Shown here in pieces: positions 1,962-16,796 of a DNA stretch of 64,000 nucleotides. The translations under genes and the position numbers were made by a program. Within the stretch, counting starts at the first letter, position 1. The number at the start of each line of letters is the position of its first letter. Below the pieces are notes generated by a model that searched no databases, was not told where the DNA came from, and saw only the letters and a list, made by a program, of their open reading frames with translations. Source of the DNA: Pseudoxanthomonas beigongshangi (lineage in GTDB: Bacteria; Pseudomonadota; Gammaproteobacteria; Xanthomonadales; Xanthomonadaceae); the NCBI RefSeq assembly GCF_016820515.1, contig NZ_JADHDV010000015.1, positions 1 to 64,000 of the forward strand, written 5' to 3'.

Positions 1962-1967
1962 TATACT
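1962..1967 (+). promoter_or_regulatory. Candidate -10 box of the cobalamin operon
   Basis: TATACT lies about 11 bases before the start of the riboswitch fold, a spacing that would put the 5' end of the RNA just before the aptamer. No good -35 match is visible 16-18 bases upstream. A small GC-rich inverted repeat at 1919-1940 may close the previous transcript. Confidence 0.4.
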
Positions 1968-1977
1968 CGCGCCGCCT

Positions 1978-2182
1978 GAGGTGACCGCCGGCCTGGCCGG
2001 TGGTTGAAACGGGAATCCGGTGCGCCGGATCGTGTTCGCACGATCGGCAATTCCGGAGCTGCCCCCGCAACGGTAGGCGAGACAAGGTACCGCAACAGCC
2101 ACTGTGCTTGATGCATGGGAAGGCGCGGACCGGAAGCACGGATCTTTCCCGGCTTCACTCGCGAGCCCGGAGACCGGCCTTT
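1978..2182 (+). promoter_or_regulatory. Cobalamin (AdoCbl-class) riboswitch
   Basis: The conserved blocks of the cobalamin aptamer occur in order: AAACGGGAATCCGGTG near 2007, the B12 box GCTGCCCCCGCAACGGTA near 2059, GCCACTG near 2098, GGGAAGGCG near 2118, and the closing GCGAGCCCGGAGACCGGCCT at 2162-2181. The family binds adenosylcobalamin and shuts off the downstream genes when B12 is plentiful. It precedes btuB by about 125 bases, and the tightly packed genes to 11801 are presumably all under its control. I could not settle the expression platform: no intrinsic terminator is obvious between 2182 and 2309, so control may be at translation initiation. Confidence 0.95.
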
Positions 2183-2295
2183 GAGCGGCGTGACATGCGG
2201 TGGGCGATGTCATGGAGGCCGGCTCGTTTCCGGTCGCCATAGCACTCTCTTTCCGCCTGTCCTTTTCCATCGCTTCCGCGCGGGCAGGCGCGGTC

Positions 2296-2301: not shown

Positions 2302-2308
2302 TGTGTCA

Positions 2309-4168
2309 GTGCATCCGCAGTCGTCGTTCCACCGCCAGATCCTGGCGGTTTCGTTGTTGCCTTCCCTTTGCTTCATCGCCCCGGCCTTCGCCGAAGCGCC
2401 GGCCACCGATCTGGATGGCGTGATCGTCACCGCGACGCGCACCGCGCGGACCCAGGATCAGACCCTGGCCGCGGTCACCGTGATCGATCGCGAGGAGATC
2501 GAGCGCCTGCAGCCGGCCTCGCTGCCGGATCTGCTGACTGGCCGCGCGGGCCTGTCGCTGGCCAACAACGGCGGTCCGGGCAAGTCCACGTCGCTGTTCC
2601 TGCGCGGCACCGAATCCGATCACGTGCTGGTGTTGGTCGACGGCATCAAGCTGGGGTCGGCCACCAGTGGCGGCGCATCGCTGCAGGACATTCCCGTCGA
2701 GCAGATCGAGCGCATCGAAATCGTGCGCGGGCCATTCTCCAGCCTGTACGGATCCGAGGCGCTGGGCGGCGTGATCCAGATCTTCACCCGCCGGCCGCAG
2801 GGGCCGTTCCAGCCCAACTTCAGCGCCAGCATCGGCAGCGAAAGGACCCGACGCGCCTCCGCCGGCATCGGCGGGCGCAGCGGCGATGCCGAGCGGGGCG
2901 GCTGGTATGCAATCCAGGCCGCGCACCAGGACACCGACGGCATCAACGCCTATCGCGGCCGGCGCAACTTCGATCCGGATCGCGATGGCTACCGCAATGC
3001 CTCGCTGACCGTGCAGGGCGGCTATCGCTTCGACGAGCATTGGGACGCGGAACTGCGGTTGTTCCGCGCCGAAGGCCGCAACGAATACGACGGCAGCCTC
3101 AACAACGAGGCCGATACGGTCCAGCAGGTGGTTGGCGGGCGCGTGCGCTACGCGGCCAATGATCGGCTGCGCATCACCGCCAGCGCCGGCGCCAGCGCGG
3201 ATCTGAGCGAGAACTTCCTCGATGGCGTGTATTCCTCCCACTTCGACACCCGCCGCAAGCTGGGTTCGCTGCAGGCCGACCTGGGGCTCGGCGCGGGCTT
3301 GTTGACCCTGGGCTACGACTGGTCCGGCGACGAGGTGGACAGCAATACCGGTTACGCGCGCGATCGCCGGATCAATCGCGGCGTGTTCGGCCAATGGCAG
3401 CAGGAATTCGGCCGGCAGTCGCTGCAGGCCAGTGCGCGCCGCGACGACGACAGCCAGTTCGGCGGCGAGACCACGGGCAGCCTGCAATGGGGTTGGGACT
3501 TCACCGAACAGCTGCGCCTGGGCGCCAGCTATGGAACCGGCTTCAAGGCGCCCACCTTCAACGAACTCTACTTCCCGGGCTACGGCAATCCGGAACTGGG
3601 TCCGGAAACCTCGCGCAGCGTCGAGCTGAGCCTGCGAGGCGATCACGGGCGTGCGCGTTGGGCGCTGCATGCCTACGAGACGCACATCGACGACATGATC
3701 GCGTTCGATGCCTCGCTGGGAGACTCCGGCGGCCCCAACAACATTGATCGCGCGCGCATCCGCGGCATCGAGGCCGAAGGCGCGGTACGGCTGGCGGACT
3801 GGGATCTGCGCGCCAGCCTGACCCGGCTGGATCCGCGCAACGATGGCGACAATCCCAACCGCGACAACCTGCTGCCGCGACGAGCGCGAAGCAGCGCCCG
3901 CATCGATGCCGATCGCCGCTTCGGCGCGTTCAGCGTAGGCGCCAGCGCGATCGGCGTGGGCGAACGCTACGACAACCTCGCCAACACCACCCGCCTGGGC
4001 GGGTACGGGCTGGTCGACCTGCGCATGGGCTACACGCTGACCCCGGCGTGGCAATTGCAACTGGCGGCCTCCAACGTGTTCGACAAGCGCTACGAAACCG
4101 CCGCGCTCTACAACCAGCCAGGACGGACCTGGTTGTTGACTGTCCGCTACCAGCCCGTCACCCACTGA
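2309..4168 (+). CDS. btuB: Vitamin B12 TonB-dependent outer-membrane receptor BtuB
   Basis: A 619-residue receptor, a normal length for BtuB (about 600). It has a signal peptide ending near PAFAEA, a TonB box region DGVIVTATR, a plug domain at about residues 40-150 (LPDLLTGRAGLSL, IRGPFSSLYGSEALGGVIQI-type motif), and a 22-strand barrel closing with WLLTVRYQPV. It binds cobalamin or precursor corrinoids at the cell surface and passes them to the periplasm using TonB energy. It is the first gene after the cobalamin riboswitch and lies 12 bases upstream of the first BtuM-like gene, which fixes its substrate with good confidence. Confidence 0.92.
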   Translation: MHPQSSFHRQILAVSLLPSLCFIAPAFAEAPATDLDGVIVTATRTARTQDQTLAAVTVIDREEIERLQPASLPDLLTGRAGLSLANNGGPGKSTSLFLRGTESDHVLVLVDGIKLGSATSGGASLQDIPVEQIERIEIVRGPFSSLYGSEALGGVIQIFTRRPQGPFQPNFSASIGSERTRRASAGIGGRSGDAERGGWYAIQAAHQDTDGINAYRGRRNFDPDRDGYRNASLTVQGGYRFDEHWDAELRLFRAEGRNEYDGSLNNEADTVQQVVGGRVRYAANDRLRITASAGASADLSENFLDGVYSSHFDTRRKLGSLQADLGLGAGLLTLGYDWSGDEVDSNTGYARDRRINRGVFGQWQQEFGRQSLQASARRDDDSQFGGETTGSLQWGWDFTEQLRLGASYGTGFKAPTFNELYFPGYGNPELGPETSRSVELSLRGDHGRARWALHAYETHIDDMIAFDASLGDSGGPNNIDRARIRGIEAEGAVRLADWDLRASLTRLDPRNDGDNPNRDNLLPRRARSSARIDADRRFGAFSVGASAIGVGERYDNLANTTRLGGYGLVDLRMGYTLTPAWQLQLAASNVFDKRYETAALYNQPGRTWLLTVRYQPVTH

Positions 4169-4180
4169 CCGGAGCACAAG

Positions 4181-4765
4181 ATGAAACCACTGTCACGGCC
4201 TTTCCATCTCGGTCTGCTCGCCACCTTCGCGGTGCTGATGATCGCCACCCGTTACCATCACTTCGGCGATGTCCTGCATCTGCCGGACGCGTCGATGGCG
4301 ATCTTCTTCCTGGGCGGCCTGTACCTGCGCGGACACCTGCCGTTCCTGGGCTTGCTGGGGCTGGCGGTGGGCATCGACTGGGCGGCGGTGGAACTGGCCG
4401 GCGTCAGTGATTTCTGCGTGACACCTGCCTACGCCTTCCTGCTGCCGGCCTACGCGGTGCTCTGGTACGGCGGCCGCGCCTACGCGCCGAGGATGGCGCA
4501 AGACTGGCGCGGGCTGTGCGGCGGGCTGTGCGGCGCGCTGCTGGTGGCGCTGGCCTGCGCCTCGCTGTCGTTCCTGATTTCCAACGGCGCGTTCTACTGG
4601 CTGGGCGGGCGCTACCTGAATCCGGAATGGCCGCAGTACCTGGCGCGGATCTGGCAGTGGGGACCGCTGTTCGTGCGGACCACGCTGACCTACGTGGCCA
4701 GCGCATTGCTGGTGCACGGCCTGTTGCTGGCTACCCGTCGTCGTCCCGCCTCCCTCGGCACCTGA
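4181..4765 (+). CDS. btuM: BtuM-like small cobalamin transporter, copy 1
   Basis: A 194-residue protein with about six membrane segments. It contains the motifs IATRYHHFGDVLHLPDAS and GVSDFCVTPAYAF, with Cys79 in the second. From memory, BtuM of Thiobacillus denitrificans is a solitary transporter of about 22 kDa resembling an ECF S-component, in which a conserved cysteine (Cys80) coordinates the cobalt of the corrinoid; size, topology and cysteine position fit here. It would carry corrinoids across the inner membrane after BtuB. No BtuCDF ABC system is in this window, which supports the assignment. A GGAG ribosome-binding site precedes ATG 4181. Assigned from motif memory and operon context, not a search. 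Confidence 0.78.
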   Translation: MKPLSRPFHLGLLATFAVLMIATRYHHFGDVLHLPDASMAIFFLGGLYLRGHLPFLGLLGLAVGIDWAAVELAGVSDFCVTPAYAFLLPAYAVLWYGGRAYAPRMAQDWRGLCGGLCGALLVALACASLSFLISNGAFYWLGGRYLNPEWPQYLARIWQWGPLFVRTTLTYVASALLVHGLLLATRRRPASLGT

Positions 4766-4779
4766 TCAGGAGAACCGCG

Positions 4780-5400
4780 ATGTCCGCAAAGCACCTGTCC
4801 GTCACATCCGAACCCGCGCTGCCGCTGACGTCCACGCGTGCGCAGCTCCTCACCGGCATCGCCCTGGCGCTGCTGATGATCGCCACCCGCGGCCAGCACT
4901 TCGCCAGCGTGGATGCGCTGCCCAGCGCATCGTGGGCGGTGTTCTTCCTGGCCGGCGCGCTGCTGCGGCCGATGTGGACGCTGCCGGCCTTCTTCGTGCT
5001 GTCGTCGCTGCTGGACTTCGGCAGCCTCGCCAACGGCACCATCACCGACTGGTGCCTGTCGCCGGCCTACTGGGCATTGGCGTTCGCCTACGCGGCGCTA
5101 TGGCTGGGCGGCCATGCCTATCGCGGGCTGCACCGGGACCACGCGGGCACGGTACCCCGCCTGGCATTGACGCTGGCGGTGACGGCGAGCGTGGCCTACC
5201 TGTTGTCCAAGGGCGGTTTCTATTTCTTCTCCGGGCGCTATCCGGAGCCGACCCTGGACGGCTTTCTCGCTCGCATTCCGCACTACTATCCGCGCGCCCT
5301 GGGCACGCTGGCCGGTTACGTGGGCGTCGCTTTCCTGGTTCGCGCATGCCTGCGCGGGCTGGCCGCACGCGCCGCCTCCCGCCAGGGCAGCCCGGCATGA
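4780..5400 (+). CDS. BtuM-like small cobalamin transporter, divergent copy 2
   Basis: A 206-residue six-segment membrane protein that shares the layout of its upstream neighbour: MIATRGQHFASVDALPSAS near residue 35, TDWCLSPAY with Cys92, and KGGFYFFSGRYPEPTLDGF matching NGAFYWLGGRYLNPEWPQY in copy 1. It is clearly a paralogue by tandem duplication, but most loops differ. The cobalt-binding type cysteine is kept. It could be a second transporter with a different corrinoid preference, or a partner subunit. AGGAGA lies seven bases before ATG 4780, and the stop codon overlaps the cobO start (ATGA), so the two are translationally coupled. Confidence 0.72.
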   Translation: MSAKHLSVTSEPALPLTSTRAQLLTGIALALLMIATRGQHFASVDALPSASWAVFFLAGALLRPMWTLPAFFVLSSLLDFGSLANGTITDWCLSPAYWALAFAYAALWLGGHAYRGLHRDHAGTVPRLALTLAVTASVAYLLSKGGFYFFSGRYPEPTLDGFLARIPHYYPRALGTLAGYVGVAFLVRACLRGLAARAASRQGSPA

Positions 5401-6023
5401 GCCGCGGTTCGGAACGCCGCGGGCTCAGCGAGGAGGAGCACTATCGCGAACGCGCCCAGCGCAAGAAGGAACTGGTCGATCGCCGGGTCGCCCGCGCCAC
5501 CATCGACCGCGGCGTGCTGGTGGTGAACACCGGCAATGGCAAGGGCAAGAGTTCCTCCGGTTTCGGCATGCTGGCGCGCAGCCTGGGACACGGCTTCCAT
5601 TGCGGGGTCGTGCAATTCATCAAGGGCAGCTTTTCCACCGGAGAGGAGGCGTTCTTCCGTCGCTTCGACGAGGACGTCGATTATCGTGTGATGGGCGAGG
5701 GCTTCACCTGGGAAACCCAGGATCGCGAGCGCGACATCGCCGCGGCCGGCGCGGCCTGGCAGGAGGCCGCGCGGATGCTGTCGGATCCGGCCTATGATTT
5801 CGTCCTGCTCGACGAACTCAACATCGCCCTGAACAAGGATTACGTCCCGCTGGACCAGGTGCTCGCCGCGCTGGCCGCGCGACCGCCGCGCCAGCACGTG
5901 GTCGTCACCGGACGCGGCGCGCCGCAGGCACTGATCGACGCGGCCGACACGGTCACCGAGATGCGCCTGATCAAGCATGCGTTCAAGGCGGGTATCAAGG
6001 CCCAGCACGGCATCGAACTGTAG
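5397..6023 (+). CDS. cobO: Cob(I)yrinic acid a,c-diamide adenosyltransferase CobO
   Basis: A 208-residue protein with a P-loop (NTGNGKGKSS, residues 44-53) and the CobA/CobO-type motifs FIKGSFSTGEE, LLDELNIAL and VVTGRGAP. It transfers the adenosyl group of ATP to cobalt(I) of the corrin ring, making the adenosylated form used by later enzymes and by the riboswitch ligand. Length matches the family (about 200). The first 35 residues are charged, as in CobO proteins. ATG 5397 overlaps the previous stop by four bases, and cobB starts three bases after its stop. Confidence 0.93.
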   Translation: MSRGSERRGLSEEEHYRERAQRKKELVDRRVARATIDRGVLVVNTGNGKGKSSSGFGMLARSLGHGFHCGVVQFIKGSFSTGEEAFFRRFDEDVDYRVMGEGFTWETQDRERDIAAAGAAWQEAARMLSDPAYDFVLLDELNIALNKDYVPLDQVLAALAARPPRQHVVVTGRGAPQALIDAADTVTEMRLIKHAFKAGIKAQHGIEL

Positions 6024-6026
6024 ACC

Positions 6027-7325
6027 ATGGATTCCGAAACCTTCCGCTGTCCGGCATTGCTGGTCTCCGCGCCCGCTTCGGGGCAGGGCAAGACCAGCGT
6101 GACCGCCGCGCTGGCCCGCTGGCACCGTCGCCAGGGCCGTCGCGTGCGGGTATTCAAGACCGGTCCGGATTTCCTGGATCCGATGGTGCTGGAACGCGCC
6201 AGCGGAGCGCCGGCCTACCAGCTGGATCTATGGATGACCGGCGAGGCCGACGTGCGCGCACGCCTGCACGCGGCAGCGGGCGAAGCCGACCTGATCCTGA
6301 TCGAGGGCGTCATGGGTCTGTTCGACGGATCGCCCTCCAGCGCGGATCTGGCGCAGGCGCTGGGCGTTCCGGTGCTGGCGGTCATCGACGGATCGGCGAT
6401 GGCGCAGACCTTCGGTGCGCTGGCGACGGGGTTGGCGCGCTATCGCGAAGGTCTGGCCGTGCATGGCGTGGCCGCCAATCGCATCGGCAGCGCCCATCAC
6501 GCCGATCTGCTGCGCAGCAGCCTGCCGGCGGATCTGCACTGGCTGGGCGCGTTGCCGCGCGATGCGCAACTGGCGTTGCCGGAGCGTCACCTCGGTCTGG
6601 TGTCGGCCGGTGAACTCGGCGACATCGACGCGCGGCTGGATGCGCTGGCCGATGCCTGGGGTGTTCATGCGGCCACAACCTTGCCGCCGCCGGTGGCATT
6701 CGCGCCGGTGGATATCGAACCCGTACCGCCGTTGCTGCGTGGCCTGCGCATCGCGATCGCCCGCGACGCGGCGTTCTGCTTCCTGTATCCGGCCAATCTG
6801 GATCTGCTGCGCGCGGCGGGCGCGGACCTGCGCTTCTTCTCGCCGCTGGCGGGCGAGTGCTTGCCCGACTGCGACGCAGTCTGGCTGCCCGGCGGTTATC
6901 CGGAGCTGCATCTGGCGGTGCTTTCGCAACAGCATGAATTGCACGCAGCGCTGCGTGCGCATCGCGATGACGGCAAGCCGATGCTGGCCGAATGCGGCGG
7001 CATGCTGTTCGTCCTGGAGGCACTGACCGGCAAGGACGGCGAGCGTGCCGCGATGGCCGGACTCATGGCGGGCGAAGCGGCCATGCAGCCGCGACTGGCC
7101 GCGCTGGGCCTGCAATCGGTCGAACTGCCCGAAGGCGTGCTGCGCGGACACACGTTCCACTATGCCCGCGCGGAGTTGGCCTCCGTTCCGCTCGCCGTCG
7201 CCAGCAACCCGAATGGCGGTCCCAGCCGGGAAACCGTCCATCGGGATCGCCGCCTCACCGCCAGTTTCGTCCACTTCTATTTCCCGTCGAATCCGCAGGC
7301 CGCGCTGCGGTTGTTCCTGCCATGA
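6027..7325 (+). CDS. cobB: Cobyrinic acid a,c-diamide synthase CobB/CbiA
   Basis: A 432-residue two-domain amidotransferase. The N-terminal domain is a dethiobiotin-synthetase-like ATPase ([16 protein letters not shown], then [10 protein letters not shown]). The C-terminal domain is a triad glutaminase with nucleophile Cys323 in LAECGGML. It amidates the a and c side chains of cobyrinic acid using glutamine and ATP. Its presence in an operon without corrin-ring genes suggests that early incomplete corrinoids can be taken up and finished, or that ring synthesis genes lie elsewhere. Its stop overlaps the next start by four bases. Confidence 0.93.
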
Positions 7326-8248
7326 CGCCGGTGCTGGCGATGCTGGCCGGCGTCGGCCTGGACACTTTGCTGGGCGAACCCCGCCGTTGGCATCCGCTGG
7401 TGGGATTCGGCCGCTGGGCGGACTGGCTCGAACGTCGCCTGCATCGTGATGCGCGCGGCGCGGGAGCGCTCGCGTGGAGCGTGGCGGTGCTTCCGCCGGT
7501 GGCCGTGGTCGCAGGCGTGGACGTCTGGCTGCGACAGGAAGTCCCGTGGCTCGCGACCGCGTTCGCGGCGGTCATGCTGTACCTGGCCATCGGCCGGCGC
7601 AGTCTGGGCGAGCACGCGCGTGCGGTTGAAGATGCATTGGCGGCCGCCGAGCTGGACGCCGCGCGTCGGGCGGTCGGGCGCATGGTCAGCCGCGACACCG
7701 GCGGACTCGATGCCTCGCAGGTGGCCGCGGCGGCCACCGAATCGGTGCTGGAGAACGGCAGCGACGCGGTGTTCGGTGCGTTGTTCTGGTTTGCCGTGCT
7801 CGGCGCGCCCGGCGTAGTGCTGTATCGGCTGGCGAACACGCTCGACGCGATGTGGGGTTATCGAACCCCGCGCCATTTGCGTTTCGGCTGGGCCGCCGCG
7901 CGGCTGGACGACCTGCTGAATCTGCTGCCCGCGCGGCTGACCGCGTTGAGCTATGCCTTGCTGGGCCGGACCACCGGCGCGCTGCGTTGCTGGCGTGCGC
8001 AGGCGGGGCAATGGAAGAGTCCCAACGCCGGGCCGGTGATGGCGGCGGGTGCGGGCGCGCTGGGAGTCCGGTTGGGCGGACCGGCGCCATATCACGGTGT
8101 CTGGCAGCAACGTCCGCCGCTGGGCGAGGGCAGGGCGGCGGACCGGGCCGGCATCGCGGCGGCGCGACGATTGGTGAACCGCGGCGTGGTGCTGTGGTTG
8201 GCGATCGCGCTGATCATCGGACTCGGACGGGAGATGCTGCATGCTTGA
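7322..8248 (+). CDS. cbiB: Adenosylcobinamide-phosphate synthase CbiB (CobD in the aerobic nomenclature)
   Basis: A 308-residue membrane protein of normal length. Family features include the start ML...[21 protein letters not shown], the motif [29 protein letters not shown], and [28 protein letters not shown]. It joins aminopropanol phosphate to adenosylcobyric acid at the inner membrane. The start ATG 7322 overlaps the cobB stop, and the end overlaps the following gene by eight bases, which indicates translational coupling. Confidence 0.92.
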
Positions 8249-9236
8249 ACATGGCGGACGCCTGCTGCGCGCCGCGCGGCAATACGGAATCCCGGCGTCG
8301 GACTGGCTGGACCTGTCCACCGGCGTCAGCCCGTTTCCGTGGCCGGTGCCGGAATTGCCGGCATCGGTCTGGCACCGACTGCCGGAGGATGACGATGGCC
8401 TGATCGAAACCGCGCGTGCCTACTACGGTGCGCCGGATCTGCTGCCGGTCGCCGGGTCGCAGGCGGCGATCCAGGCCTTGCCGCAGTTGCGGGTTCCCTC
8501 GCGGGTGGGCGTCATCGCCCCCGGTTACGCCGAACACGCGCATGCATGGCGGCGCGCCTGGCACGAGGTGGCGACCCTGCCTGCCGGGGAACTGCTGGCG
8601 CAGGCGCATCGCTTCGACGTGGTGGTACTGATTCATCCCAACAATCCCGGCGGCGAGCGCTTCGGTTCCGCGCAGTTGCTCGAACTGCACGCGCGCCTGG
8701 CCGCGCGTGGCGGCTGGCTGGTGGTCGACGAAGCCTTCATCGATGTCGAGCCGGACGCCAGCCTGTGCGCCGAGACCGCGCGGGAAGGCCTGATCGTGCT
8801 GCGCTCGGTCGGCAAGTTCTTCGGCATGGCCGGCGCGCGGGCGGGATTCGTCTGCGCATCGCCCCTGCTGCTGGACGCATTGCGCGAACGGCTGGGACCC
8901 TGGACGTTGAGCGGTCCCAGCCGCCATGCGCTGCGGCTGGCGCTGGCCGACAAGGCCTGGCAGGCGTCGGCGCGTCCACGCTTGCGGGCCGCCGGCGAGC
9001 GGCTTTCCGGAATCCTGCGTGCGGCCGGGCTCGAACCGGCCGGCGGTTGCGCGCTGTTCCAGTGGTGCCGTCACGCCGATGCGCGCGCATTGCACGAGGC
9101 GCTGGCGCGGCGCGGCATCCTGACCCGGTTGTTCGACACGCCGGCCAGCCTGCGCTTCGGCCTGCCGGCGGATGAGGCGGGATTCCTGCGCCTGCGCGAC
9201 GCACTCGCCGGCATCCACGCGGAAGCCATCGCATGA
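8241..9236 (+). CDS. cobC: L-threonine-O-3-phosphate decarboxylase (CobC/CobD type)
   Basis: A 331-residue fold-type I aminotransferase-like protein. It opens with HGG then [13 protein letters not shown], typical of this family, and has the PLP lysine at about residue 192 in [16 protein letters not shown]. It decarboxylates threonine phosphate to (R)-1-amino-2-propanol phosphate, which the preceding CbiB attaches to cobyric acid. The gene order cbiB-cobC-cobQ puts the side-chain steps together. The name is confusing across species: this is CobC in Pseudomonas nomenclature and CobD in Salmonella. Confidence 0.9.
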
Positions 9237-10705
9237 ACGCGCGCGTGCTGATGGTGCAGGGCTGCACGTCCGATGCCGGCAAGAGCACGCTGGTCACCGC
9301 GCTGTGCCGCTGGCTGCAACGCCAGGGCGTGCGGGTGGCGCCGTTCAAGCCGCAGAACATGGCACTCAACTCGGCGGTCACGGCGGACGGTGGCGAAATC
9401 GGGCGCGCGCAGGCGGTACAGGCGCAGGCGTGCGGGCTGGCGCCGCATACGGATTTCAACCCCGTGCTGCTCAAGCCCGACAGCGACACCGGTGCGCAAG
9501 TCATCGTCCACGGACGCGCGGTCGCGCGCCTGGGAGCCAGCGCATATCACGACTACAAGCGGGTGGCGCTGGAAGCGGTGCTCGCTTCGCACGCGCGGCT
9601 GTGCGCCGGCTATGACGCGGTGGTGGTGGAGGGCGCCGGCAGCCCGGCGGAAATCAACCTGCGCGCCAACGACATCGCCAACATGGGGTATGCGGAAGCC
9701 GTCGATTGCCCGGTGATCCTGGTGGCCGACATCGATCGCGGCGGCGTGTTCGCGCATCTGGTCGGCACCCTCGCATTGCTTTCGGAAAGCGAACGGCGGC
9801 GGGTGAAGGGTTTCGTCATCAACCGTTTCCGCGGCGACATTTCCCTGCTCGAACCGGGATTGGCCTGGCTGGAGCGCGAAACCGGCAAGCCGGTGCTCGG
9901 CGTGCTGCCCTACCTGCAGGGCCTGCATCTGGAAGCGGAGGACGCACTGCCCGTCGCCGTCGCCGACAAGCCCGAAGCCCGCCTGCGGGTGGCGGTACCG
10001 GCATTGCCGCGCATCAGCAACCACACCGATCTGGACGCGCTGCGTGCGCATCCGCAGGTGGATTGCCGGTTCGTCGGCCCGGGGCAATCGCCGCCGCACT
10101 GCGACCTGATCATCCTGCCGGGCAGCAAGTCCACCCGCGCCGATCTTGCCTGGCTGCGCGAGCAGGGATGGGAGGTGGCACTGGCCCGGCACCTGCGCTA
10201 CGGCGGCAAGGTGATCGGCATCTGCGGCGGCTTCCAGATGCTGGGCCGGCGCATCCACGATCCCGAGGGCATCGAGGGCGCGCCGGGATCCAGCGCGGGG
10301 CTGGGCTGGCTGGATATCGAGACGACGCTGGAAGCCGGCAAGCAACTGCGGAACGTGCGCGGCATGCTCGCCCTGGCGGACGACGCGGCGCCTGTCAGTG
10401 GATACGAGATCCATTGCGGCGTCAGTCGCGGTGTCGCGCTGGCGTCCGCGCCGATCACGCTGGAGCAGGGACGCGCCGATGGCGCGCGTTCGGACGACGA
10501 CCAGATCCTCGGCACTTACCTGCATGGCCTGTTCGATTCGCCACCGGCGCTGGCCGCGCTGTTGCGATGGGCGGGTCTGGAGCGGGCCGCCCCCGTGGAC
10601 ATGCAGGCACTGCGCGAGAGCGCCATCGATCGTCTGGCCGACGCGGTGGAAGCGCACCTGGACACCGCCGCGTTGCACCGGCTGCTGGGACGGGAGAACG
10701 CATGA
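9233..10705 (+). CDS. cobQ: Cobyric acid synthase CobQ/CbiP
   Basis: A 490-residue protein of normal length. The N-terminal ATPase domain shows [20 protein letters not shown], then [13 protein letters not shown] and [14 protein letters not shown]. The C-terminal glutaminase domain has [15 protein letters not shown] and nucleophile Cys331 in [10 protein letters not shown], then YLHGLFD near the end. It amidates four further side chains of adenosylcobyrinic acid a,c-diamide. It overlaps cobC by four bases and cobP by four bases. Confidence 0.95.
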
Positions 10706-11235
10706 ACCCTCCACGACACACGCTGATTCTGGGGGGCGCGCGATCCGGCAAGAGCGCGCTGGCCGAACGCTGGGCGCAGGCCTCCGGGCATGCGGTCACC
10801 TACATCGCCACCGCGCGCAGCGGCGATGATGAAATGGCCGCGCGCATCGCCCACCATCGCGCCCGGCGTCCGGCCGACTGGGCCTGCGTGGAAACGCCCA
10901 TCGAACTCGCCGCGACCCTGGCCCGGCATGCGGCAGCGGATCGCTGCCTGCTGGTGGACTGCCTCACCCTGTGGTTGAGCAACCTTCTGATCGACGCGGA
11001 AGGCACGGCGTTCGAACGCGAGCGGAAAGCGCTGCTGGACACGCTGCCCGGCTTGCCGGGCGAGATCCTGATGGTCAGCAATGAAGTCGGATCCGGCGTG
11101 GTGCCGATGGGCGAACTGAGCCGCCGGTTCGTGGACGAGGCCGGGCGATTGCACCAGGCGCTGGCGGAGCGTTGCGGACGGGTGGTGTTCGTCGCCGCGG
11201 GTCTGCCGCTGGCGCTCAAGGGAAGCCTGCCGTGA
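10702..11235 (+). CDS. cobP: Adenosylcobinamide kinase / guanylyltransferase CobP (CobU)
   Basis: A 177-residue protein with P-loop GGARSGKS (residues 10-17), the motif [12 protein letters not shown] and the strand [24 protein letters not shown]. It phosphorylates adenosylcobinamide and transfers GMP to give adenosylcobinamide-GDP, the substrate for cobalamin synthase. The genes that usually follow (cobT, cobS) are not here. It starts at ATG 10702 inside the cobQ stop (ATGA) and its own TGA overlaps the next GTG start. Confidence 0.93.
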
Positions 11236-11801
11236 GCCTTGGCGCGGACGCGCCCGGGGTCGAGTTGATGCGGCATGGCGACACCGGTCGCATCAGTTAT
11301 CGGGGACAGCTCGATGACGCGCTTTCGCCGATGGGCTGGGCGCAATTGCGCACGGCGGTCGCCGGTCGGCACTGGGATGCGATCGTGGCTTCCACGCTGC
11401 GGCGCTGCGCGGCGTTCGCGACCGAGCTGGCGGCCCGGCGCGGGTTGCCGCTGCGGCTGGATGCGCGACTGGCCGAGTACCACTTCGGCGAATGGCAGGG
11501 TATGCCGATCGAAACACTGCAAACGACCTCGCCCGACGCGCTGCACGCGTACTGGTCGGATCCGGTGCGTTTCCCTCCGCCGGGCGCGGAACCCTTCGCA
11601 GCGTTCCGTGAACGCCTGTCCGCCGCGCTGGACGAAATTGCCGCCGAATCACACGGACGGCGCGTCCTTGTCCTGACTCACGGTGCGGCGATTCGCCTGT
11701 TGCGGTGTCTGGTGGAGGGCCGCGATTTCGGCGAGATGGCGGGCATCCCCGTGGATCACGCCTCGCTGCATCCGTTGGCCTGGCCGCCAGCCGGGCGATG
11801 A
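11232..11801 (+). CDS. Histidine phosphatase family protein, probable alpha-ribazole phosphatase
   Basis: A 189-residue phosphoglycerate-mutase-fold protein. The catalytic motif is near residue 12 as LMRHGDTG (usual LxRHGxT), followed by GMPIETL and a second histidine in VLTHGAAIRLL. In cobalamin operons this family removes the 5'-phosphate of alpha-ribazole phosphate or of adenosylcobalamin phosphate. The start is GTG 11232, overlapping the cobP stop; an earlier GTG would lie inside cobP. Because no cobT or cobS is adjacent, its exact substrate is inferred from context only. Confidence 0.75.
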   Translation: MSLGADAPGVELMRHGDTGRISYRGQLDDALSPMGWAQLRTAVAGRHWDAIVASTLRRCAAFATELAARRGLPLRLDARLAEYHFGEWQGMPIETLQTTSPDALHAYWSDPVRFPPPGAEPFAAFRERLSAALDEIAAESHGRRVLVLTHGAAIRLLRCLVEGRDFGEMAGIPVDHASLHPLAWPPAGR

Positions 11802-12056: not shown

Positions 12057-12103
12057 AATTCCGCGTCAGCAACCGTTATTCAATCCAGGAGAGGGTGATT
12101 GAA

Positions 12104-15100
12104 ATGAACCAGGTTCCACGCAAGCGCATCAGGAATTCACTATCCACGGCGATCGCCATCGCCCTGACCGCAACCGCGGCGCTGCCGGGCAGCGCATTCG
12201 CCCAGCAGGCGCCAGCCCAGGAGCAGGCCGACGCGCCCGCCAGCGCCACCGACCTCGACAAGGTGACCGTCACCGGTTTCCGCTACTCGATCGAGCAGAG
12301 CCTGGAACAGAAGCGCAACGCGAACGCGGTCGTCGAAGTCATCACCGCCGAAGACGTCAGCAAATTCCCCGACAAGAACGTGGCCGACGCGCTGCAGCGC
12401 GTGCCCGGCGTGATCATCACCCGCGACGGCGGCGAGGGAAAAACCGTCAGCGTGCGCGGCCTGTCCTCGGACCTCACCCTGACCCAGTTGAACGGCAACT
12501 ACGTCGCCTCGTCGGAAACCAACGACGAAGCGTCGCGCTCGTTCAACTACACGCTGCTGCCGGCCAACATGCTGTCCAGCGCGGAACTGTTCAAGACCCC
12601 GGAGGCGCGCATCGACGAAGGCGGCATCGGCGGCACGGTGATTCTGCATACCCGGCGCCCGCTGGATCTGGAGAGCAATTCGGGCTTCGCCACCGTCGAA
12701 GGAACCTATTCGGACACCAGCAAGACCACCGACCCGCAGCTGTCGGCCATGTATTCCTGGCACAGCGACGATGACCGGTTCGGCGTGCTGGTGGGCGTGA
12801 CCAAGCAGAAGCGCACAAACCGCAGCATGGAGGTCAGCACCGAGGACTACCAGTGGTACGGAGATGACTACGAAGGTTCGCCCGCGACCGATGTCAACGG
12901 GAGGCCATTCACCCAGGACGGCATTGGATACTGGTGGGGACAGTCGGGTTTTTACAACCAGACGGGCGACTACTACTCCAACTTCTTCCTGCCGACCTCG
13001 GTCAACTTCGCCGTGCGCGAGGAAGAGCGCGAGCGCGAGGGCGCGCAGCTGACCTTCCAGTTCAAGCCAACCGACAACCTGACCCTGACCGCCAACTATT
13101 TCCGCTTCGAACTCCAGGGCGATTACACCCTGAACATGCTGAAGATCCCGGAATGGAACCTGGCCCGCTATTCGGGCGACGGCAACTGGCCCGGCGGCCG
13201 CCTGCTCAATGGGCTGACCTTCGATCGCAGCGGCACCATCGTGACCGGCGCCGAGTACGAAAAGCTGCCAGGCAAGGTCTATTATTGCAGCGAGGACGAA
13301 GCAGTGGCAGCCGGCCTGGAACGCGGCGGTTGGGGACCGGATGACTGCACCATCCCGACTCCGCAGCTGACCGGCGGCTACAGCCGCGAAAAGGCGCTGT
13401 CGCAGACCGCGGATCTGGCGATCGAATGGGATATCGGCCCGCTGTGGAAGGCATCGTTCAAGGGCGGCCGGACCTGGTCCGAAGGCGGCCCGTCGATGAA
13501 CTTCCGCATGTCGGCCAAACCGCGTCGCCAGGTCGACGGCGTGTGGCAGGCCGGCAATACCTACAGCGCCTGGGATCTGAGCGGGACGCCGACGGCGACC
13601 TTCTCGCCGAATCTGCAGGAGATGCTGATGGCGGGCGTGGCGGAAATCGACACCGGCTCGACCGATTCGTCCTGGATGGAAACCGAACTCGAGCAGAACT
13701 ACTTCCAGGCCGACTTCACCAAGCTGTTCGAGGACGGCTGGCTGGATTCGATCCAGTTCGGCGCGAAGTACCGGGACGGCAAGGTGCACCGCAACACCGG
13801 CAATACCTACTGGGTCTGCCAGGGCGCCTCGCCCGACGACTATGACGCCCGCTACCAGAGCAGCGGCTGTGCCGATCCGGAAAAGGGCATCGCCCAGCCA
13901 GGCTTCTTCTACTCCAAACCCATCGGCAACATCGCCGGCGGCTTCAACGCCAATGTCTTCCCCGGCATCAACTTCCCGGCCTACATCAACTATCTCAACA
14001 GCCGCTATGGCGGCATGCAGAACCGTCGCGAACCCGACTTCGTCTACAACGTCGGCGAGAAGATCTATTCGGGCTACTTCCAGGCCAATTTCCGCACCGA
14101 GCGCCTGCGCGGCAACATCGGCGTGCGCGTGGTGCGCACCAAGCAGAGCGCCGAATCCACCGACTCGGTGGAACGGTTCATGGACTACTTCGTGGATGGC
14201 CCGGATGGCAACCCGCTGGCGTGTCCCGCCGGCGAACCGCCCGCGGGAACCGTCTGCGAGTCGGGCTTCGTGCGCCGCGACGTGCGCGAGAAGACCTACG
14301 AACTGGCCTCGCTGGACAAGACCTACACCGACGTGCTGCCGAGCTTCAACATCGCCTATGACCTGACCGAGAACCTGGTGCTGCGCGCCGCGGCCTCCAA
14401 GGTCATTTCCCGTGCGGGCTACACCAGCATCGCCTATCCGGGCGGGCTGCAGTTCTACAGCGAGGAATACAGCAACGACCGGCGTGTCGCCGGCGGCACC
14501 ACCAACCCCGGCTGGTACGGCTCGGGCAGCAACAAGGATCTGCAGCCGTTCGAGGCCACCCAGTTCGATGTCGGGCTGGAGTGGTACTACAAGCCGGGTT
14601 CGGTGCTGGGCGCAGGACTGTTCCGGAAGAACGTCAAGAACTTCACCGTCGAGGTCGTCCGCGACCAGCAACTCGTGGTGGGTGGAGAGACGGTGACGAT
14701 CCAGGGGTACAGCACCGATGCCAATGGCCGCGACGCGGTGTCGCAGGGCGTGGAACTGTATGCCCAGCACACCTTCGATTCGGGATTCGGATTCCAGGCC
14801 AACTACACGTACAACGACACCAACCTGGCTTCCATCGTTCTCGACGGCGAGAACATCGGCGAATCGCCGCTGGCGGGCAGCGCCAAGAACCAGGCGAACC
14901 TGACGGTGTTCTACGAGAACGACCGGTTCCTGGCCCGTGCTTCCTACAATCGTCGCGGCGAGGTGATCGGCAACCTGGACAATGGTCTCACGGTCTACAG
15001 CGAGCCTTACGATCAGCTGGATCTGAACGCCGCGTACAACATCACCGACTACCTGACCCTCACCGGTTCGGTGCTGAATGCGACCAAGTCTGAGCAACGG

Positions 15101-15190
15101 CAGTATCTGGGCAACGACACCGAAGCCCGCACGTACTCCAACAACTACTCCGGGCGCATCCTGTACCTGGGCCTGACCTACAAGTTCTGA
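12104..15190 (+). CDS. TonB-dependent receptor of the Caulobacter/Xanthomonas carbohydrate class
   Basis: A 1028-residue receptor with a signal peptide ending near GSAFAQQ, a TonB box region DKVTVTGFRYSIEQSLEQK, and the plug motifs FPDKNVADALQRVPGV and KTPEARIDEGGIGGTVILHTRRPLD that mark the Xanthomonas/Caulobacter receptor subfamily (TIGR01782 type). The barrel ends YLGLTYKF with terminal Phe. Such receptors import oligosaccharides or other scarce nutrients. The ligand is unknown; the gene after it is a tryptophan-halogenase-like flavoprotein, an arrangement common in this group. ATG 12104 is chosen because AGGAGAGGG lies eight bases upstream. Confidence 0.88.
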   Translation: MNQVPRKRIRNSLSTAIAIALTATAALPGSAFAQQAPAQEQADAPASATDLDKVTVTGFRYSIEQSLEQKRNANAVVEVITAEDVSKFPDKNVADALQRVPGVIITRDGGEGKTVSVRGLSSDLTLTQLNGNYVASSETNDEASRSFNYTLLPANMLSSAELFKTPEARIDEGGIGGTVILHTRRPLDLESNSGFATVEGTYSDTSKTTDPQLSAMYSWHSDDDRFGVLVGVTKQKRTNRSMEVSTEDYQWYGDDYEGSPATDVNGRPFTQDGIGYWWGQSGFYNQTGDYYSNFFLPTSVNFAVREEEREREGAQLTFQFKPTDNLTLTANYFRFELQGDYTLNMLKIPEWNLARYSGDGNWPGGRLLNGLTFDRSGTIVTGAEYEKLPGKVYYCSEDEAVAAGLERGGWGPDDCTIPTPQLTGGYSREKALSQTADLAIEWDIGPLWKASFKGGRTWSEGGPSMNFRMSAKPRRQVDGVWQAGNTYSAWDLSGTPTATFSPNLQEMLMAGVAEIDTGSTDSSWMETELEQNYFQADFTKLFEDGWLDSIQFGAKYRDGKVHRNTGNTYWVCQGASPDDYDARYQSSGCADPEKGIAQPGFFYSKPIGNIAGGFNANVFPGINFPAYINYLNSRYGGMQNRREPDFVYNVGEKIYSGYFQANFRTERLRGNIGVRVVRTKQSAESTDSVERFMDYFVDGPDGNPLACPAGEPPAGTVCESGFVRRDVREKTYELASLDKTYTDVLPSFNIAYDLTENLVLRAAASKVISRAGYTSIAYPGGLQFYSEEYSNDRRVAGGTTNPGWYGSGSNKDLQPFEATQFDVGLEWYYKPGSVLGAGLFRKNVKNFTVEVVRDQQLVVGGETVTIQGYSTDANGRDAVSQGVELYAQHTFDSGFGFQANYTYNDTNLASIVLDGENIGESPLAGSAKNQANLTVFYENDRFLARASYNRRGEVIGNLDNGLTVYSEPYDQLDLNAAYNITDYLTLTGSVLNATKSEQRQYLGNDTEARTYSNNYSGRILYLGLTYKF

Positions 15191-15203
15191 GTCGAGTTGT
15201 CCG

Positions 15204-15233
15204 CCCCCTCACCCGAGGGTGAGGGGGATTTTC
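15204..15233 (+). terminator. Strong hairpin with short T tract between receptor and halogenase-like gene
   Basis: CCCCCTCACCC at 15204-15214 pairs perfectly over 11 bp with GGGTGAGGGGG at 15217-15227, followed by ATTTT. It lies 14 bases after the receptor stop and probably ends or sharply reduces transcription before the halogenase-like gene. Confidence 0.75.
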
Positions 15234-15275
15234 CATGTTGGCGACAGGCGCGTTCCCGGGGAGGGGAGTGCAGGA

Positions 15276-16796
15276 ATGAACACAGACAACCGCATCCAGC
15301 GCGTGGTCGTGGTCGGCGGTGGCAGTTCCGGCTGGATGGCGGCGGCGACCCTGGCCACGTTCATCGGCAAGGGCGCGGACATCCGCCTGATCGAGTCCGA
15401 GGAGATCGGCATCATCGGAGTGGGCGAGGCCAGTGTCCCGCACATGCGCATCTTCAACGCGCATGTGCTAGGCATCAAGGAGGCCGATTTCGTCACCCAT
15501 ACCCAGGGCACCTTCAAGCTGGGGATCCAGTTCAACGACTGGGCACGCATCGGCGACAGCTATGTGCACGGGTTCGGCACGCTGGGGCGTTCGCTGGGAC
15601 CGCTGCCATTCCACCAGTTCTGGCTCAAACTGTTCCTGGCCGGCCGCGCGCCGGCGATCGGCGCCTATTCGTTGCCGACCGTGGCCGCACCCCTGTGCCG
15701 GTTCACCAACAGTCCGGAAGGTGCTCCGGCCGGTTCTCCACTGGAGGACATCGCCTACGGCTATCACTTCGACGCCGGGCTGTATGCACGTTACCTGCGC
15801 AACCTGTCCGAGCGCAGGGGCGTGACGCGCATCGAGGGCAAGGTGGTGGACGCGGTCCAGCGCGCCGAGGATGGCTTCATCGAGGCGGTCGTGATGGAAA
15901 GCGGCGAACGCATCGAAGGCGATTTGTTCATCGATTGCTCCGGGTTTCGCGGCCTGCTGATCGAACAGGTGTTGAAGACCGGCTACGAGGACTGGTCGCA
16001 CTGGCTTCCCTGCAACCGGGCGATGGCGGTGACCTGCGAAGGCAGCGCGCCCCTGACGCCGTACACGCGGGCCACCGCGCGGGCGGCGGGTTGGCAGTGG
16101 CGCATCCCCTTGCAGCATCGCGTCGGCAACGGCTATGTCTATTCAAGCGAGCACCTGGGCGACGACGAGGCCGCCGCGACCCTGCTGGCGAATCTCGATG
16201 GCCGCCCGTTGATCGAACCGCGGCCACTGCGCTTCACCACCGGCAGGCGCAGGCGATTCTGGAACCGCAACGTGGTCGCGCTGGGTCTGGCCGGCGGCTT
16301 CATGGAGCCGCTTGAATCCACCAGCATCCACCTGATCCAGTCGGGCCTGCAGCGCTTGCTGGGGCTGTTCCCGGATCGCACGTTCGATCCCTTGCTGATC
16401 GAACGCTTCAACCGGGACTCGATTTTCGAGTACGAGCGAATCCGCGATTTCCTGATCCTCCACTACAACGCCACCGAGCGCGACGACAGCCCGTTCTGGG
16501 ATTACTGCCGGACGATGCCGATCCCGGACAGCCTGCGCGAAACGGTCGATCTGTTCCGCCTGGACGGACGCTACTTCCGCAACGGCGAGGATTTCTTCGC
16601 GTTGCCGAGCTGGGTGCAGGTGATGCTGGGCCAGCGTGTCGTGCCGCGCGGCTACCACCCGATCGTGGACGAGATGCCCGAGGAGGAACTGGCGGGATTC
16701 GTCGAACGGGTGCGTCGGACACTGGCGACGTGCGTGGACACGATGCCGTCCCACCAGGACTACATCGACCGTTACTGCAAGGCGCAGATGAACTGA
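15276..16796 (+). CDS. Tryptophan-7-halogenase-like FAD-dependent protein
   Basis: A 506-residue flavoprotein. It has the FAD motif VVVGGGSSGWMAAATLA (GxGxxGW type), GVGEASVPHM, the halogenase motif WxWxIP as WQWRIP, Lys81 in TFKLGIQFNDW at the position of PrnA Lys79, and Glu347 in EPLESTSIHLIQSG at the position of PrnA Glu346. The family uses FADH2, oxygen and halide to make HOCl, which a lysine directs to the substrate. The key residues are therefore present, but members beside TonB receptors in Xanthomonadaceae mostly have no known substrate. It needs a separate flavin reductase. ATG 15276 has AGGA close upstream. Confidence 0.85.
   Translation: MNTDNRIQRVVVVGGGSSGWMAAATLATFIGKGADIRLIESEEIGIIGVGEASVPHMRIFNAHVLGIKEADFVTHTQGTFKLGIQFNDWARIGDSYVHGFGTLGRSLGPLPFHQFWLKLFLAGRAPAIGAYSLPTVAAPLCRFTNSPEGAPAGSPLEDIAYGYHFDAGLYARYLRNLSERRGVTRIEGKVVDAVQRAEDGFIEAVVMESGERIEGDLFIDCSGFRGLLIEQVLKTGYEDWSHWLPCNRAMAVTCEGSAPLTPYTRATARAAGWQWRIPLQHRVGNGYVYSSEHLGDDEAAATLLANLDGRPLIEPRPLRFTTGRRRRFWNRNVVALGLAGGFMEPLESTSIHLIQSGLQRLLGLFPDRTFDPLLIERFNRDSIFEYERIRDFLILHYNATERDDSPFWDYCRTMPIPDSLRETVDLFRLDGRYFRNGEDFFALPSWVQVMLGQRVVPRGYHPIVDEMPEEELAGFVERVRRTLATCVDTMPSHQDYIDRYCKAQMN

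Follow-up and report, generated by a model that had tools for sequence, protein, structure and literature searches.

The window analysed here is a stretch of 64,000 nucleotides from Pseudoxanthomonas beigongshangi (NCBI RefSeq assembly GCF_016820515.1, contig NZ_JADHDV010000015.1, positions 1 to 64,000 of the forward strand). It carries a corrinoid-salvage operon in which two genes of the BtuM family of cobalamin transporters lie side by side:

4181..4765, + strand: btuM1 (P0001, 194 residues), predicted BtuM-family inner-membrane corrinoid carrier of lineage M1
4780..5400, + strand: btuM2 (P0002, 206 residues), predicted BtuM-family inner-membrane corrinoid carrier of lineage M2

The two genes are separated by 14 nucleotides, and the btuM2 stop codon overlaps the start codon of the downstream cobA gene in the sequence ATGA (5397-5400). 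A sequence-only reading of the window had described two adjacent six-segment proteins of these lengths. Both reading frames were confirmed, and each AlphaFold2 model contained six long helices, with a mean predicted local distance difference test score of 91.0 for BtuM1 and 89.3 for BtuM2.

It is near certain that both proteins belong to the BtuM family, as had been proposed from the letters alone. In phmmer searches, the solved BtuM chain 8c7p was matched with expectation values (E) of 2.6e-28 by BtuM1 and 1.4e-42 by BtuM2; a second solved entry, 8ovv (‘Tagless BtuM’), was also matched. Both models have a six-helix S-component-like fold, and the structural match named earlier as a check was present: BtuM was the closest Foldseek match to both (E 1.6e-12 for BtuM2). 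From its title and its residue numbering (H28, D67, C80, Y85 and R153, as in the published work), we infer that 8c7p is the BtuM of Thiobacillus denitrificans. The cobalt-binding cysteine C80 corresponds to C79 in BtuM1 and C92 in BtuM2, and this column was cysteine in all 140 unique sequences of our alignment (139 from genomic loci, plus the solved BtuM). The four further pocket residues H28, D67, Y85 and R153 are represented by H27, D66, Y84 and R156 in BtuM1 and by H40, D79, Y97 and R165 in BtuM2, the D67 and Y85 columns being invariant across the 139 locus sequences. By analogy with the published protein, C79 and C92 would ligate cobalt. The cysteine motifs noted earlier (SDFCVTPAY and TDWCLSPAY) and the GGRYLNPEW/SGRYPEPTL pair were found as described; the motif given as ATR-x-HF is in fact spaced ATR-x-x-HF (ATRYHHF and ATRGQHF). 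No S-component besides BtuM appeared among the sequence matches of either protein up to E 1. At the same threshold neither Pfam nor NCBIfam assigned a family to either protein: BtuM1 drew two weak Pfam hits, both under their cut-offs, and nothing else was hit. This suggests that annotation based on these libraries may overlook BtuM-type importers.

The origin of the pair was addressed with a maximum-likelihood tree of 115 BtuM proteins, midpoint-rooted for drawing only. The first and second members of such pairs were split by a branch with support of 100/98. On the M2 side lay the second members, the characterised BtuM and many single BtuM proteins from other orders; on the M1 side lay the first members, M1-type single proteins (some from other orders) and a lineage linked to the adenosyltransferase PduO. 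Constraining 39 M1 and 24 M2 rows to one clade, as the sequence-only reading would have it, cost 107.6 log-likelihood units (approximately unbiased test, p-AU 0.000116), the exact constrained rows having been named after the tree was seen. Because a deep branch separates the two proteins and the one-clade tree is rejected, the pair is not the product of a local duplication, which is ruled out under the model used; the earlier proposal that a duplication produced it must be abandoned. That BtuM1 and BtuM2 represent two anciently separated lineages of one family is strongly supported. A tandem duplication within the operon or its recent ancestor would accord with the adjacency and homology of the genes (39% identity over 175 columns, E 7e-29, far above chance), but is next to impossible given the tree and given that BtuM2 matches the solved BtuM with 149 bits (phmmer) and BtuM1 with 94 bits (BLASTP). 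The second-of-tandem label required one change on the best tree, on a weak branch (41/0), and 50% of the bootstrap trees gave it a single origin; for the first-of-tandem label, 10 changes were needed, at least seven of them on well-supported branches. Most simply, M2 would have entered the M1 operon at an early stage, with many losses or relocations since.

The earlier assignment of both btuM genes to one B12 operon was borne out, as they lie in a riboswitch-led cluster with btuB and cob genes, in the order riboswitch, btuB-btuM1-btuM2-cobA-cobB-cbiB-cobD-cbiP-cobU-cobC. Around the pair, its features are:

1962..2197, + strand: cobalamin riboswitch RF00174, operon leader (cmscan 111 bits, E 5.9e-27, full model)
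2303..4168, + strand: btuB, TonB-dependent outer-membrane B12 receptor, GTG start (TIGR01779, 761.4 bits; cut-off 599.7)
5397..6023, + strand: cobA/btuR, CobA-type corrinoid adenosyltransferase (TIGR00708, 224.8 bits; cut-off 167.75)
6027..7325, + strand: cobB/cbiA, cobyrinic acid a,c-diamide synthase (NF002204, 425.1 bits; cut-off 254)
7322..8248, + strand: cbiB, adenosylcobinamide-phosphate synthase (TIGR00380, 191.8 bits; cut-off 165.9)
8241..9236, + strand: cobD, threonine-phosphate decarboxylase (TIGR01140, 359.3 bits; cut-off 290.55)
9233..10705, + strand: cbiP/cobQ, cobyric acid synthase (NF001989, 681.9 bits; cut-off 273)
10702..11235, + strand: cobU/cobP, adenosylcobinamide kinase/guanylyltransferase (NF004469, 217.2 bits; cut-off 161)
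11172..11801, + strand: cobC-like histidine phosphatase, start uncertain (PF00300, 138.9 bits; TIGR03162, 126.6 bits, under its cut-off of 162.9)

A cobalamin riboswitch was also present in all eight of the other tandem-pair loci tested. On the same strand, the operon is flanked by SapC and OmpH-like genes (475-1899) and by genes for a TonB-dependent receptor and a tryptophan halogenase (12095-16796). Genes of these four types are often clustered together, so the B12 operon may have been inserted into one pre-existing gene cluster.

The sequence-only reading had noted that no BtuCDF genes lie in the window, and this extends, as far as tested, to the whole assembly (4.23 Mb in 68 contigs, listed as 100% complete). 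The assembly contained no FecCD-type permease, the family of BtuC, in a search that was positive in 13 of 14 control genomes. Also absent were matches to CbiQ/EcfT (PF02361; positive in 10 of the 14 controls), CbiC (seven), CbiN (two), and the SbmA_BacA and ABC_membrane_2 families of BacA/SbmA-type ATP-binding cassette (ABC) transporters (two each). The genome encodes MetH and an IcmF-like protein, likely users of B12, identified from partial frames with scores under the model cut-offs. Given these absences, the cob genes and the likely B12 users, the organism looks like a corrinoid salvager in which BtuM proteins are the only recognised inner-membrane corrinoid importers.

There are three BtuM proteins in the genome: the tandem pair and a third copy on contig C5 (L003:1474-2082, - strand; also L023:8362-8970). 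The third gene lies 16 nucleotides from a PduO-type adenosyltransferase gene, a family assigned through the corresponding gene in a relative (L027), which is 100% identical to the host copy over the match. No riboswitch was found in the 17 kb surrounding this third btuM. It belongs to a separate, well-supported lineage in which all seven tree rows adjoin PduO. In this lineage the cysteine is kept, the H28 equivalent is leucine in 19 of 21 sequences and the R153 equivalent is asparagine in all 21. Elsewhere in the genome (contig C23, L115:7104-11874), a second cobalamin riboswitch and a second btuB are divergent from cobT, a cobC-like gene and cobS.

Within the genus, 36 of 37 genomes, the host included, encode at least one BtuM, and three hold the M1-M2 pair (the host, G000, with G012 and G036). 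Among named relatives, those nearest to BtuM1 come from Pseudoxanthomonas, at 94% and 81%. In G022, also of the genus, the only btuM of the operon is M2-like. A genome of the genus shows the same operon with a single fast-diverged M2-like gene (L028:4419-5024, or L006:1486-2091; end branch 1.61) and no M1 found beside it.

Across the order, 252 of 397 genomes had a match to the BtuM alignment, and an immediate M1-then-M2 tandem occurred in at least 27 of the 397, from 13 genera and two families, with the gene order never reversed. These 27 confirmed tandems comprise G000, G036 and 25 other loci; the count leaves out G206, G294, G365 and G397 (three or four matches apiece), as well as many two-match genomes. 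M1 stands alone in eight further loci of the order (L116 and L124-L130). Among 34 loci from named genomes matched with P0001, a choice biased towards the M1 lineage by the use of P0001 patterns, seven carry the pair (L032-L037 and L039): two from Pseudoxanthomonas and one each from Lysobacter penaei, L. soli, Lysobacteraceae bacterium P, Rhodanobacter sp. Root480 and Luteimonas cucumeris. Six of the seven also occur among the records of the genome search.

At the level of the class, BtuM was found in 44 of 370 genomes, a sample in which no immediate tandem was seen outside the order. Where sampled genomes from other orders have two BtuM genes, as six do, the two are on separate contigs or have some 4 kb or more between them. 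In one Methylococcales locus (L055), a second BtuM is matched in part some 0.8-0.9 kb further downstream, close to where the locus ends, and this may be a near-tandem. In three loci from other orders (L131, L132 and L133), a second BtuM gene sits at the far end of the cob cluster near cobT/cobS, not adjoining the first. Each lineage also occurs as the only BtuM found in a genome with the operon: M1 in G047, G271 and G373 (among the matches listed) and M2-type proteins in, for example, G529 and G533. No two-BtuM operon was mentioned in the titles or abstract openings of the BtuM papers found, a search that lay outside subscription papers and supplementary tables, including the homologue list of the BtuM paper, and the BtuM passages of PMC11109136, PMC10378866 and PMC8123684 mention no pair. 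The arrangement may therefore be recorded in supplementary or subscription literature. The family itself is ordinary; the arrangement is unusual and recurrent.

With moderate confidence, we favour a model in which BtuM1 and BtuM2 are two solitary carriers in one operon, with CobA as the proposed trap for what they import, and are both retained for a difference in affinity or in the range of corrinoids accepted. In this model, BtuB would move corrinoids into the periplasm. There each BtuM would bind them on its periplasmic face, the conserved cysteine contacting the cobalt, and carry them over the inner membrane with no dedicated ATPase. CobA, encoded in the same operon, would adenosylate the imported corrinoid and so trap it, and CobB, CbiP, CbiB, CobD and CobU, with CobT and CobS encoded elsewhere, would complete partial corrinoids. 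The Co-Cys ligation, uptake and trapping steps are taken from published BtuM work, passages of which also describe decyanation (PMC6072759). Each carrier probably works alone, and a different corrinoid preference is a plausible leading reason for keeping both. Twenty-three alignment columns differ between M1 and M2, each at least 80% conserved in either lineage, and they include neighbours of the cobalt cysteine, where lineage-specific residues were found in 28 of 28 rows of each lineage; as judged from sequence, this suggests that the two lineages handle corrinoids differently.

Several points weigh against this model. The 23 columns, for which no null was run, may reflect drift or packing instead of substrate. 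As the tree is unrooted, M1 and M2 may have arisen by an ancient duplication when the BtuM family began, and a heteromer would likewise account for the constant gene order. The cobB gene accompanied 20 of 24 tandem rows and 15 of the 27 M1-matching rows that lack M2 (Fisher p 0.04 before phylogenetic correction); after correction, seven pairs gave a mean of 1.2 in agreement, 0 in disagreement and 5.8 uninformative. Ten M1-matching rows in which btuB, cobA or cbiB was unseen in the stretch were dropped from this count, and the row for the window, which itself has cobB, used the gene list of a close relative (L024). Any tie between M2 and cobB, or early-precursor salvage, is thus weak. A tentative and rather doubtful refinement of the two-carrier model divides the work by completeness, with one lineage, perhaps M1, taking up cobyrinic acid, cobyric acid or cobinamide and the other complete cobamides. 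The CobB-CbiP-CbiB-CobD-CobU enzymes would then finish the incomplete corrinoids brought in by the precursor-dedicated BtuM. If this were true, such proteins would be, to our knowledge, the first solitary S-component-like carriers dedicated to precursors.

It is unlikely that the second carrier does the same job as the first and only raises uptake capacity. Such redundancy would suit the sharing of every studied pocket residue by the two proteins, and the tandem arrangement seems to have switched several times across the tree, as expected of a dispensable gene. However, both genes are under purifying selection (ratio of nonsynonymous to synonymous substitution rates of 0.11-0.23 against two close relatives), the residues beside the cobalt cysteine are lineage-specific, and the genome already holds a third BtuM.

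The sequence-only reading had also offered a heteromeric transporter, in which one subunit would bind the corrinoid and the other aid toppling or release. The genes are adjacent, their order is constant throughout the 27 confirmed tandem genomes, and M1 and M2 divergence was correlated over 27 loci, a different set from those genomes (r 0.73, with none of 2000 permutations as high). However, CobA distances also correlate with M1 (r 0.66) and M2 (r 0.62), so the correlation is largely one of shared descent, and the repeated changes of the first-of-tandem label (at least seven) sit poorly with an enforced partnership. Some genomes have an operon of this kind with M1 and no M2, others with M2 and no M1, and the characterised BtuM restored growth of Escherichia coli by itself in published work (PMC6072759). 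An obligate heteromer is therefore disfavoured, and we regard a BtuM1-BtuM2 complex as very unlikely. It is more improbable still that one member of the pair serves for decyanation or corrinoid sensing in the membrane instead of transport: passages of the literature describe decyanation by BtuM (PMC6072759) and an S-component fold common to receptors (PMC11109136), but both proteins keep the same pocket residues, and M1-type proteins are the sole BtuM found in the three genomes with a full operon named above (among the matches listed, other importers not having been searched there).

The recurrent tandem offers a natural comparison, with two carriers sharing the same membrane, receptor and adenosyltransferase, and no BtuC-type, energy-coupling factor (ECF) or BacA-type route found in this host. 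It bears on how BtuM transports without an energising module, and on its selectivity.

Among known systems, the BtuCDF ABC importer has the same expected role of moving corrinoids across the inner membrane, but no FecCD-type permease was found in the Pseudoxanthomonas genome. The S-components of ECF transporters (ThiT, RibU, BioY and FolT) differ in that the genome has no EcfT/CbiQ match; none of them was among the matches up to E 1. The closest counterpart is the BtuM of T. denitrificans (PDB 6FFV), a single gene that, in passages of PMC6072759, restores E. coli growth by itself; the same source describes btuM as linked to btuR/cobA in most hosts, and hosts as lacking an ECF module, with one exception among the homologues. 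The window proteins resemble it in near full-length homology, in the six-helix S-component-like fold, in the cobalt cysteine and the H28/D67/Y85/R153 equivalents, in linkage to cobA/btuR (here also to btuB) and in the absence of a detected EcfT. Whereas the T. denitrificans protein works singly, two deep lineages stand here in tandem with a third encoded elsewhere, M2 lying on the T. denitrificans side of the tree and M1 on the other.
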